Part shown: in pieces, positions 32,848 through 44,277 of the stretch | How the letters are laid out: every line of letters starts with the position of its first letter | How positions within the stretch are numbered: the stretch's first letter is position 1 | Assembly (NCBI RefSeq): GCF_030848575.1 | Contig: NZ_JAVDDX010000001.1 | Coordinates: forward strand, 496,001-560,000 | Length of the DNA: 64,000 bases | Origin: Haloarcula sp. H-GB4 | GTDB taxonomy: Archaea > Halobacteriota > Halobacteria > Halobacteriales > Haloarculaceae | Direction: 5' to 3' | The notes under the pieces: generated by a model | Told to the model about the DNA's origin: nothing | The model's database searches: none | Seen by the model: the letters and a program-made list of their open reading frames with translations, nothing else | Made by a program: the position numbers and the translations under genes

Positions 32848-33612
32848 CTACTCGCCGCTGCCTTCGGAGCCGTTACCGCCGCCTTTCTGCTCTGCCAGCC
32901 AGTCCTCATACTCGTCCTGCGGGACGACCTCAACGGTCCCGAGCATCTGTGAGTGGCCAGAGCCACAGTACTCGGCACAGTAGAGCTGGTATGTCCCGGT
33001 GTTACCCGCGTTGGTTCGGAGGCGGTTGTACTGGCCGGGGAACGCATCGGATTTCAGTCCAAGTCCAGGCACGTGGAACGCGTGTAGCCAGTCCTTCGAT
33101 GTAACCCGCAAGGAGACGTCCTGATTGGCTGGTATCTTCAGGTCCGTTCTAGTGGTTACTTCTGCCTCGCCGTCCCAGCTTGATTCGTTGTAGTAGAACG
33201 TCCAGCCGTACCGCTGGGCTTCGACGGTAATGAGTTCAGTGTCCTGTTCCTGTAGTGCGGCCTGATCACCGGCCTCGGCGGTGACGTACGGGCTAGCCAT
33301 AACTTGGTAGGAGGCGACGCCCACGAACAGGAGAATAATTGCTGTCGCGATGGTCCAAGTCACTTCGAGTCGACGGTTCTCTCGCGTTGGAAGCGCCTCT
33401 TCCTGATTACGGAACCGCCAGACGGTATAGACCAGAATCCCTTCGACGAGGACTGTAATCGGGAGAGCAACGTACAGGAGGTTCATGTTTAGCCCCCAGA
33501 TGAGGCTATCCGTCGTCGAGTCCTGAATCTGTGCGGCGGCGGCCGGCTCGGCGGCGAGCGCGAGTAACGCAGCACCGAACAGAGCGACCAGACCGGCGCG
33601 TTTCCGGGTCAT
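32848..33612 (-). CDS. coxB: cytochrome c oxidase subunit II
   Basis: A 254-residue subunit II of a haem-copper oxidase. It has a cleavable-looking signal (ALFGAALLALAAEPAAAAQ), two membrane helices at about 45-65 and 86-106, then a cupredoxin domain. The CuA centre is intact: His177 in LHAF, and CAEYCGSGHSQM with Cys212, Cys216, His220 and Met223. It passes electrons from a soluble donor such as halocyanin to subunit I, which is not in this window. It is divergent from the ctaB-type gene, which makes the haem for the oxidase. Confidence 0.93.
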   Translation of the reverse strand: MTRKRAGLVALFGAALLALAAEPAAAAQIQDSTTDSLIWGLNMNLLYVALPITVLVEGILVYTVWRFRNQEEALPTRENRRLEVTWTIATAIILLFVGVASYQVMASPYVTAEAGDQAALQEQDTELITVEAQRYGWTFYYNESSWDGEAEVTTRTDLKIPANQDVSLRVTSKDWLHAFHVPGLGLKSDAFPGQYNRLRTNAGNTGTYQLYCAEYCGSGHSQMLGTVEVVPQDEYEDWLAEQKGGGNGSEGSGE

Positions 33613-35844: not shown

Positions 35845-35875
35845 CGCTTTCAGGCCGACAGGCGTAAGGGCCGGT

Positions 35876-36115
35876 ATGAGTTCTGTCGAAATCGAATACT
35901 GTGTTCCGTGTGGGTTCCGCGAGCGAGCAGTAAACGTCCAGCAAGCGATCTTATCCGGACTCGAGCGGGAACTCGACAGCGTCCGGCTGGTCATGGGCGA
36001 CCACGGCGTGTTCCGGATTAGCGTGGATGACGAGACTGTCTACGACAAGGCCGAGGCCGGTGATGAGTTCGATGTGGACGCTATCGTGCGCGAGATCCGG
36101 TCGCACGTCATGTAG
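35876..36115 (+). CDS. SelW/Rdx-family thioredoxin-fold protein
   Basis: The 79-residue protein starts SSVEIEYCVPCGFRERAVNV, with the CxxC redox motif (Cys9, Cys12) at the end of the first strand as in SelW/SelT/Rdx proteins. It continues with LERELDSVRLVMGDHGVFRIS and DDETVYDKAEAGDEFD, matching the Rdx pattern of a glycine-rich turn and VYDK motif. All cysteine, no selenocysteine. Family members are thiol redox proteins of unclear partner. It follows the CxxC membrane protein by 31 bp, in the same direction. Confidence 0.9.
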   Translation: MSSVEIEYCVPCGFRERAVNVQQAILSGLERELDSVRLVMGDHGVFRISVDDETVYDKAEAGDEFDVDAIVREIRSHVM

Positions 36116-36183
36116 CAGGCCACTGTGCTACTGTCGGCGGAATATCGTGGCGAAGCTATCCTCGGTTTGTGACTGCCTACCGC

Positions 36184-36202
36184 ACAACAAACTATTTGTT
36201 GT
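36184..36202 (+). promoter_or_regulatory. perfect 8-bp inverted repeat, possible operator
   Basis: Arms ACAACAAA (36184-36191) and TTTGTTGT (36195-36202) are exact complements, separated by CTA. The centre lies about 32 bp before the ATG of the 35-residue zinc ribbon, where a TATA box is expected (AAACTATTT overlaps it). A bound regulator here would compete with TBP; this is inference. Confidence 0.5.
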
Positions 36203-36224
36203 TCTGGTGTGACACTTTCGGCAA

Positions 36225-36332
36225 ATGGCGACGAAAACCGAATTCTGTGACCACTGTGAAGAGACCATGCCAGTCGTCACGGACAAGCCGTGGCTCCCCG
36301 CTGTCTGTCTGGAATGTGGCCGCAACGTGTAG
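36225..36332 (+). CDS. 35-residue zinc-ribbon microprotein
   Basis: The 36-codon frame encodes a 35-residue product. Two CxxC pairs (Cys8-Cys11 in FCDHCE and Cys28-Cys31 in VCLECG) are 16 residues apart, the spacing of a small zinc ribbon. It opens MATKTEFCDHCEE and ends CLECGRNV. Short zinc-finger microproteins are known to be common in haloarchaea, with roles in stress and biofilm. Too short for normal gene finders. The upstream inverted repeat and the 55-bp gap to the ABC ATPase suggest a regulated small gene, perhaps co-transcribed with it. Confidence 0.75.
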   Translation: MATKTEFCDHCEETMPVVTDKPWLPAVCLECGRNV

Positions 36333-36387
36333 CCCATAGTCGCGCGAGAACGGAACTGCTTTCGGCCACCCGACCGGACGAGGGCGC

Positions 36388-37329
36388 ATGGACGAGGTAC
36401 TGGTCGCGTCGGATGTCGGGCGGCGCTACGGCGATACGGTCGCACTTGACGGCGTTTCGCTGACGGCGACCACTGGAGAGGTGCTCGCGCTGGTCGGTCC
36501 TAACGGGGCTGGCAAGACGACGCTGGTGCGGGCGTTGACCGGAACAACAGATGCGACTGGCGAGGTACGGCTGTTCGGCCAGTCACCCAGAACGGTCGCT
36601 CGCGACCGACTTGGCCTGTTGCCACAGTCGTTTTCGCCCCACGAGCGACTGACGGCGCGGGAACTGCTTGAATACTACGCCGGCCTGTACGACGATACCC
36701 GCGACGTCGAGGCTGTTCTCGACGATGTGGGTCTAGCCGACACCGCAAGCACCACATACGAGAATCTCTCGGGCGGGCAGCAGCGCCGGACCTGCGTCGC
36801 GACGGCGCTCATCAACGATCCGGACCTCCTTGTGCTGGACGAACCGACCACCGGCATCGACCCGGCCGGTCGGCGGGATCTCTGGCGACTGCTGGAGGGA
36901 CTCGCCGACCGCGGCGTGACGATACTCGTCACGACACACTACATGGAGGAGGCTCAGCGGCTCGCGGACCGCGTCGGCCTCCTCGCTGACGGGACACTCA
37001 TCGCACTTGACTCGCCGGAGCAGCTCGTGGCCGAACACGGTGGCGACAGCCAGCTCATCGTTGATGGATCCTTCGACGAAGCTGCCGTCTCAGCCATCGA
37101 CTATCCGGCGGAGACAGCGATCCGGAACGGCCGGCTGGTCGTCTACGGCATCCGCCCGGAGTCCATCGGCAACATCACTGAGCAACTGGGGCAGGCGGGC
37201 ATCGAGTACGACAGCCTGACCTGGAAACAGCCGGACTTGGAGGACGTCTACCTCGAACTGACCGGAACGGCCGTCGGTCAGCGCGGTGAGCCACAACAGG
37301 CGGAGCCGGTCGCGGGTGGTGCCCAATGA
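36388..37329 (+). CDS. ABC-2 exporter ATP-binding protein
   Basis: A 313-residue ATPase: Walker A GPNGAGKTT (about residue 38), signature LSGGQQRR, Walker B LLVLDEPTTGIDP and H-loop VTTHYMEEAQRLAD. Past residue 220 there is a C-terminal region found in drug- and NodI/CcmA-type exporters. Overlaps the permease that follows by four bases. The substrate is unknown; its position next to haem O synthase and redox genes raises the possibility of a role in oxidase maturation. Confidence 0.92.
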   Translation: MDEVLVASDVGRRYGDTVALDGVSLTATTGEVLALVGPNGAGKTTLVRALTGTTDATGEVRLFGQSPRTVARDRLGLLPQSFSPHERLTARELLEYYAGLYDDTRDVEAVLDDVGLADTASTTYENLSGGQQRRTCVATALINDPDLLVLDEPTTGIDPAGRRDLWRLLEGLADRGVTILVTTHYMEEAQRLADRVGLLADGTLIALDSPEQLVAEHGGDSQLIVDGSFDEAAVSAIDYPAETAIRNGRLVVYGIRPESIGNITEQLGQAGIEYDSLTWKQPDLEDVYLELTGTAVGQRGEPQQAEPVAGGAQ

Positions 37330-38066
37330 GCCGGCTGGGACGACTCACAGCGGAGACGCGTGCGGCGTCGCTGGCCTTCCTCCGGCGACGGACGGCCGTC
37401 TTCTTCACGTTCTTTTTCCCGGTCATCATCGTCGTCATCTTCGGCGTACTGGTCCAGACCCAGCCGGGCGGCGGCGGGCTGTTCACCGAGCCGCCGAGCT
37501 TCTACGCACCGGGCTATCTGGCCGTCGTCGTCCTGTTTACGCCGCTCTCCCGCGTCGGTAGCGAAGTGGCGCGGCATCGGGACGGCAACCGCTTCGAGAA
37601 GCTGGCGACGACACCGCTGACCCGGACCGAGTGGCTGCTGGCACAGACGCTCGTCAACGTCGTCATCATCGGCATCGCCGGCCTGCTGATACTCGGTATG
37701 ATGGTATGGCTCACCGGCGCAACCATCCATCTGTCGGGGCTGTTGCTTCCCTTTGTCGGCCTCGGCGTCGCGCTGTTCTGTGCCGTCGGCGCGATGCTGG
37801 GTAGTCTCGCGGACTCACAGGACGGCGTCATTGCGGCGAGCAACGGCCTCGCGCTCCCGCTGCTCTTTCTCTCGGAGACGTTTGTCCCACAGACACTTCT
37901 GCCCGCGTGGCTGCCGACGTGGCTCTCGCCGCTGACGTACTTCTCCCGTGGCGTCCGTGCGGCGACGACCGGTACTGGCGATGCACTCGGGCCGCTGGCT
38001 GTTCTCACAGTCTGTGCTGTCGTCGGCTTTGTGATCGGTGCGCGACTCCTCCCGCAGACGGATTGA
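37326..38066 (+). CDS. ABC-2 type exporter permease
   Basis: The 246-residue partner of the preceding ATPase has six hydrophobic segments, from AVFFTFFFPVIIVVIFGVLV to LAVLTVCAVVGFVIGARLL. The middle has LEKLATTPLTRTEWLLAQ-like sequence (FEKLATTPLTRTEWLLA) and AASNGLALPLLFLSETFVP near LPTWLSPLTYFSRGVR, both typical of ABC-2 membrane proteins. It forms the exporter pore. Ends 16 bp before the convergent phosphatase gene. Confidence 0.92.
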   Translation: MSRLGRLTAETRAASLAFLRRRTAVFFTFFFPVIIVVIFGVLVQTQPGGGGLFTEPPSFYAPGYLAVVVLFTPLSRVGSEVARHRDGNRFEKLATTPLTRTEWLLAQTLVNVVIIGIAGLLILGMMVWLTGATIHLSGLLLPFVGLGVALFCAVGAMLGSLADSQDGVIAASNGLALPLLFLSETFVPQTLLPAWLPTWLSPLTYFSRGVRAATTGTGDALGPLAVLTVCAVVGFVIGARLLPQTD

Positions 38067-44171: not shown

Positions 44172-44256
44172 GTCGTGGTAGCCAAGCCTGGCCCAAGGCG
44201 CAGGGTTGCTAACTCTGTGGCGTACAGCCTCCGGGGTTCGAATCCCCGCCACGACG
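44172..44256 (+). tRNA. tRNA-Ser (anticodon GCT)
   Basis: An 85-nt class II tRNA. The acceptor stem pairs GTCGTGG with CCACGAC and the discriminator is G. The anticodon stem is CAGGG/CTCTG with loop TTGCTAA, anticodon GCT at 44208-44210. A long variable arm and a T loop with GGTTCGAATCC follow. Together these identify tRNA-Ser reading AGC/AGU. No CCA is encoded and no intron is seen. It sits 21 bp before rps13 and is probably the first gene of that transcript. Confidence 0.95.
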
Positions 44257-44277
44257 CTCACCCATCAGTACCTACAT

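Follow-up and report, generated by a model that had tools for sequence, protein, structure and literature searches.

The region between a gene for an Rdx/SelW-like protein and the genes of an ABC-2 exporter in Haloarcula sp. H-GB4 raises two questions: is a very short open reading frame located there a gene, and does an inverted repeat in front of it serve as an operator? The region was analysed within a stretch of 64,000 nucleotides (NZ_JAVDDX010000001.1, positions 496,001 to 560,000), in the following called the window. A sequence-only reading had described an ORF of 35 residues with two CxxC pairs, 16 residues between them, and had placed it between a SelW-like redox protein and an ABC-2 exporter. 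The ORF was found at 36225-36332 on the forward strand, and the identity of the neighbours was confirmed by matches to PF10262 and to PF00005 and PF01061, respectively. The genes are arranged as follows.

35876-36115, forward strand: neighbouring gene for an Rdx/SelW-like protein (Pfam PF10262, E=1e-19)
36225-36332, forward strand: ORF of 35 residues, gene for a C4 zinc-ribbon-type microprotein (CxxC-x16-CxxCG)
36388-37329, forward strand: neighbouring gene for an ABC-2 exporter ATPase (PF00005)
37326-38066, forward strand: neighbouring gene for an ABC-2 permease (PF01061)

Upstream of this region, a heme o synthase fusion and a DUF7546 protein are encoded. The gene at 32848-33612 is presumably cox2.

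The microprotein and its relatives

The Cys pairs of the microprotein are C8/C11 (CDHC) and C28/C31 (CLECG), 16 residues apart. Among 22 aligned members, C8, C11, W23, C28, C31, and G32 are invariant, and P22 and P25 are nearly so. The AlphaFold2 model of the peptide is a small beta-hairpin with a mean pLDDT of 87 and a pTM of 0.51; according to PMC11241148, metal-site formation by Cys residues is not correctly predicted by AlphaFold2. Zinc would be bound via C8, C11, C28, and C31.

With 35 codons and no Pfam or NCBIfam model reaching its cut-off, the ORF could have arisen simply by chance or could be part of the 5' leader of the ABC gene. Conservation of the peptide in relatives, which the sequence-only reading had suggested as a check, was detected in 17 out of 32 Haloarcula genomes (E<=0.01), with the four Cys residues kept. 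Three of the 15 genomes without a match are at most 80% complete. Over the 17 sequences, 20 of the 35 codon columns show synonymous variation only, 11 show changes of the residue, and four are invariant. Differences from the window sequence amount to 37, 40, and 132 at codon positions 1, 2, and 3, respectively, and dN was smaller than dS in 14 out of 16 comparisons of orthologs with the window; for L085 and L090, dN was not below dS, both being about 0.05. A profile search across the order (E<=0.001) revealed peptide matches in 53 out of 392 genomes, representing 21 out of 95 genera, although the weak matches of this search may be other zinc ribbons. One homolog, 57% identical and the only one detected in an annotated record, is located on a Halarchaeum plasmid (NZ_CP054708.1; L080, 4001-4105), where no gene is entered in the plasmid gene table, a table stated to be incomplete. 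Since 17 of the 32 genus genomes match and codon variation is mostly synonymous, the peptide is, judged by its sequence, the product of a real gene beyond chance. The synonymous pattern, the four Cys residues invariant over 22 members, and the homologs in other genera and on the plasmid all argue against a chance ORF or a piece of leader, which we regard as extremely improbable.

CPxCG-related proteins have been defined by two Cys/His patterns 7-40 residues apart with at least one CPxCG, CPxCx, or CxxCG (PMC2253796). In the peptide, CDHC and CLECG are 16 residues apart within a single domain of 35 residues (less than 70), and by this published sequence definition it is a CPxCG-related zinc-finger microprotein. 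It resembles the haloarchaeal members described (PMC2253796, PMC11241148) in having fewer than 70 residues, Cys pairs 16 apart, one CxxCG, and a single domain, but its first pair is CDHC and not CPxC, and its length is below the range of 50-70 residues in which such proteins are most frequent (PMC2253796). Of 14 CPxCG-type proteins covered in PMC11241148, nine bound zinc and five did not.

Three better known proteins and one Pfam family are suitable for comparison. Brz of Halobacterium salinarum, compared here by its description, is likewise a small zinc-finger protein, whose gene directly precedes another one on the same strand. While deletion of brz lowers the mRNA of the neighbouring bop, in the case studied here the neighbour is present without the peptide in many relatives. 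HVO_0758 and HVO_2753 of Haloferax volcanii are microproteins with C(P)XCG motifs; their deletion mutants are impaired in swarming, and in each of them about 110 transcripts are altered (PMC10716476). They differ from the peptide in their length of 56 and 59 residues, and an HVO_2753-like chain was matched at E 4.9 only; therefore, no close kinship was seen. To the double zinc ribbon of Pfam (DZR, PF12773), 15 of the 22 members show similarity at E<=0.05 (best 0.00047), but the window protein reaches 18.5 bits, which is below the cut-off of 27.3, and contains four Cys residues only.

Foldseek searches with the peptide model produced 26 matches, none of them significant among solved structures (best E 2.5). 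Sequence searches for a solved relative gave nothing convincing: the two matches with the lowest E values are multi-finger proteins, in neither of which a single stretch passes, and the best match with a passing stretch is ribosomal protein S27e (E 0.062). Searches in PHROGs yielded weak matches only (best E 0.0056), and the next best match to the peptide in its own genome was at E 0.31. A viral origin of the peptide was rejected after one scan of IMG/VR contigs, in which six pattern matches were obtained and none confirmed, and a search of phage records with just two chance-level matches (E 0.4).

The promoter region and the inverted repeat

An inverted repeat with 8-bp arms around a 3-bp centre, located on the TATA region about 32 bp before the ATG, had been noted in the sequence-only reading. 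It is present at 36184-36202, and its centre is 32 bp before the start codon of the microprotein gene. In the following list, locus orthologs are the 15 orthologs located between the SelW-like gene and the ABC gene, and negative numbers refer to the ATG.

36184-36202, no strand assigned: inverted repeat ACAACAAA-CTA-TTTGTTGT (8+3+8), read as BRE plus TATA box; perfect in two of 15 locus orthologs
36184-36191, forward strand: A-rich element, left arm of the repeat, putative BRE (-41 to -34); six of eight columns identical in 15/15
36193-36200, forward strand: TATA box, centre at about -28; TATTTGTT in the window and one other, TATTTATT in 12/15, TATTTATC in 1/15
36208-36214, forward strand: conserved TGTGACA, probably a promoter-proximal element (-17 to -11); six of seven columns identical in 15/15, the other in 14/15

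In the locus orthologs, a block from -41 to -11 with the consensus ACAACAAACTATTTATTGTTCTGCTGTGACA is kept, while much of the flanks is variable. CTATTT is found at -33 to -28 in all 15. These upstream sequences align without gaps, and no insertion or deletion is present between the box and the ATG. In haloarchaea, the TATA motif has been described as TTWT and the BRE as CGAAA, and 72% of the protein-coding transcripts of Haloferax volcanii are leaderless (PMC4983044). The A-rich ACAACAAA before the box is only a loose match to CGAAA. Three features are in agreement with a leaderless haloarchaeal transcript: a box of the TTWT type centred about 28 bp upstream of the ATG, the A-rich sequence preceding it, and the constant spacing in 15 sequences. 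A difference from such a promoter is that, in this strain, the two elements happen to be complementary. In the two orthologs located elsewhere, the upstream sequence is different, with the TATA-like CTTTAAC at nearly the same distance from the ATG.

Conservation of this degree upstream of a gene is usual for gene starts in the neighbourhood. In an ungapped comparison with up to 12 rows, the best 24 nt upstream of the peptide scored 0.955, a value exceeded by seven out of 14 other gene starts nearby, one of the 14 having only four rows. Among the higher-scoring starts are those of cox2, ctaB, ABC, and 38783; the starts at 44261 and 44278, which also belong to the seven, overlap with or lie next to a gene for tRNA-Ser (44172-44257).

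Comparison of the repeat itself among the locus orthologs showed no mismatch in two, one in nine, and two or more in four, and the dyad is perfect in neither of the two orthologs located elsewhere. Conservation of the perfect repeat in other Haloarcula, also proposed as a check, was thus not observed. The base at -27, which completes the palindrome, is G in the window and in G017 and A in the other 13 locus orthologs, giving ACTATTTATTG. Over the whole dyad, 85% of the cells pair, and 198 out of 500 shuffles reached this level, a comparison of low power with its five distinct rows. One compensating pair was detected in one row (L015). In a tree calculated from 1200 bases of the downstream ABC region, the window and G017 do not group together; support is modest, with 83/88 for a clade of 12 rows that excludes G017 and 82/95 for the grouping of the window with G019 and G005. 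Therefore, the perfect form may have arisen twice.

Repeats of this kind are not beyond chance in the window, since 20 perfect ones (arms of at least 8, spacer of at most 10) were observed and 17.85 on average (range 11-26) in 20 dinucleotide shuffles. Two figures point in the opposite direction, both for a site chosen after being seen: such a repeat occurs in only 66 out of 5000 shuffles of the 60-bp promoter (1.3%), and a window should contain its exact letter pattern 0.01 times by expectation. Elsewhere in the own genome, the spaced dyad was detected at one place only with at most one mismatch; at three mismatches there was no excess over the reversed control (6 versus 9 forward), and the conserved form of the repeat has no second copy within three mismatches.

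According to the sequence-only reading, the repeat is an operator, at which a dimeric repressor bound to the dyad would block TBP at the peptide promoter. The exact dyad does sit on the TATA box, 11 of the 15 locus orthologs have at most one mismatch, and both the compensating pair of L015 and the rarity of such repeats in promoter shuffles speak in favour of this reading. An operator that tolerates an imperfect dyad would also be compatible with the strictly kept left arm and the nine orthologs with a single mismatch. It is difficult to reconcile with an operator, however, that the dyad is perfect in two locus orthologs only, that its pairing is matched by many shuffles, that repeats in the window are as common as in shuffled sequence, that the genome contains a single further site within one mismatch, and that the kept block is one-sided. 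Running from -41 to -11, this block can be interpreted as a BRE followed by a TATA box and a proximal element. As the dyad is neither conserved nor compensated and no regulon copies were seen in the own genome, a finding that a single-target operator would fit, the palindromic operator was rejected as the main reading; we consider it quite improbable.

Most likely, the palindrome is incidental and the sequence is the normal promoter of the gene. TFB would recognise the A-rich left arm, the T-rich right arm would serve as TATA box, and an A-to-G variant in the box would have made the arms complementary by chance in this strain and in one other. Transcription would start at or next to the ATG, resulting in a leaderless mRNA. 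We therefore favour, with good though not full confidence, the view that a haloarchaeal zinc-finger microprotein of the CPxCG type is encoded here by a stand-alone gene, which has its own ordinary core promoter and is probably leaderless.

The gap between SelW and the exporter

The gap between the SelW-like gene and the ABC gene was compared across genomes. In 15 out of 32 Haloarcula genomes it contains the peptide gene, in another 15 SelW and ABC are together without it, and in the remaining two, which are incomplete, SelW was not matched. The 15 gaps without the peptide comprise 13 read in one set, G022, and G011. The peptide was not matched anywhere in 13 of these genomes, one of which, G011, is 71% complete, and two, G014 and G021, carry it elsewhere. 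Ten extra stretches were examined, one from a genome of the genus and nine from other genera; SelW and ABC are together in G022 and, in other genera, in G033, G035, and G055, while the other six are without an ABC match. No zinc ribbon was seen in four gaps outside Haloarcula (G033, G035, G055, and G039), which measure 248, 49, 39, and 72 bp, respectively. Since the gap is without peptide in 15 Haloarcula genomes and in four of other genera, this is probably the older state. The gene is optional in the genus and probably entered the gap of this lineage later. The 248-bp gap of G033 (L111) appears, as judged by eye, to contain another very short ORF (about 30 residues, hydrophobic), and therefore the gap may accept microprotein genes.

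Upstream of the ABC gene, a further element was detected.

36348-36365, forward strand: GAACGGAACTGCTTTCGG, promoter-like element of the ABC gene itself, 22 nt before its ATG

Its core, GAACGGAACNGCTTTCGG, is found 22 nt before the ABC ATG in 29 of the 30 Haloarcula genomes that were read, 14 of which lack the peptide in this gap. This count is based on 29 of 31 loci from 28 genomes (G004 is present in two loci) and on G022, with the spacing determined by eye; the loci are L001-L015, L037-L039, L041-L048, L050-L052, and L110. One base varies, giving GAGCGG in some loci, and the TATA box is poor. In the remaining genome, G011 (L040), a diverged form was seen by eye at a distance of 21 nt from the ATG, and L049, from another family, is without the element. 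In 13 genomes without the peptide in the gap, the element follows the SelW stop codon after 0-9 bp. The sequence between GAACGGAACNGCTTTCGG and the ATG is variable and the distance constant, which points to a leaderless promoter of the exporter's own. Control shared with SelW and the exporter, as envisaged in the sequence-only reading, is therefore not needed: the fixed-distance element of the ABC gene is also present in the 14 gaps without the peptide.

Two side observations concern the SelW-like gene. GCTTTCAG is located at 35846-35853, 22 nt before its ATG, and more distant relatives have CTTTGTC, TTTACC, or TTTGTGAC near this site. Its stop codon lies within a short inverted repeat, GTAGCA-N8-TGCTAC, at 36112-36131 (by eye).

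The arrangement could nevertheless mean that the peptide works together with the SelW-like protein and the exporter, for instance as a metal or redox helper in cytochrome oxidase biogenesis, and that it is co-transcribed with the exporter. It occupies the same gap in 15 Haloarcula orthologs, genes for heme o synthase and a DUF7546 protein are located upstream, and only 55 bp separate the peptide stop from the ABC ATG; no terminator was seen there by eye, so that read-through into ABC is possible. Such a partnership is weakened by the 13 match-less Haloarcula genomes and the two with the peptide elsewhere, in all of which SelW and ABC are together without it, by the varied neighbours of homologs in other genera (from a rough ORF listing), and by the element that ABC has of its own. 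That the peptide is present because of a link with SelW and ABC loses support through the peptide-less junctions and the copies elsewhere, and we judge the partnership unlikely, if less so than the operator.

Role and distribution of the microprotein

The product of the stand-alone gene would most likely be a small adaptor that acts in trans on a bound protein or nucleic acid and adjusts expression in certain conditions, as has been reported for Brz and HVO_0758. When either of these two is deleted, the transcription of other genes is altered (PMC10716476 among the sources), and a phenotype has been described for 12 out of 16 Haloferax deletion mutants (PMC10716476, PMC2253796, and PMC6562870 among the sources). 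A helper role for SelW, the exporter, or the oxidase is possible but less likely.

In other genera, homologs have varied neighbours according to the rough ORF listing. In two relatives (L093, L094), the peptide gene is divergent from another gene, which we take to be TrmY-like. In five loci of genus g50 (L061, L062, L064, L065, and L069), TATATCACACATAGT-SGR-TACTATA is conserved within 60 nt before the ATG of the homolog; this stretch holds a short dyad, ATAGT/ACTAT, and is unlike the Haloarcula promoter. Tentatively, and with some doubt, the peptide and its homologs could belong to an uncatalogued haloarchaeal single-ribbon family (C-x2-C, PW-x-P, C-x2-CG), which would travel as a self-contained leaderless gene. 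On the same tentative footing, one Haloarcula lineage would carry it in the SelW-exporter gap and two relatives next to a different gene, and its sites in other genera would be scattered. Keyword searches of the open-licence literature revealed no report on the Haloarcula peptide.

From the sequence-only reading, a real gene for a zinc-ribbon-type microprotein and a repeat on the TATA region have been retained, but not the operator and the shared control. The analysis adds a well-conserved but ordinary microprotein gene, whose product stays below the cut-offs of all Pfam and NCBIfam models, and marks by comparison the promoter-like element of the exporter gene as unusually constant. It also calls for caution, since a palindrome covering the TATA box of an archaeal promoter, even a perfect one, can consist of nothing but a BRE rich in A and, behind it, a TATA box rich in T.
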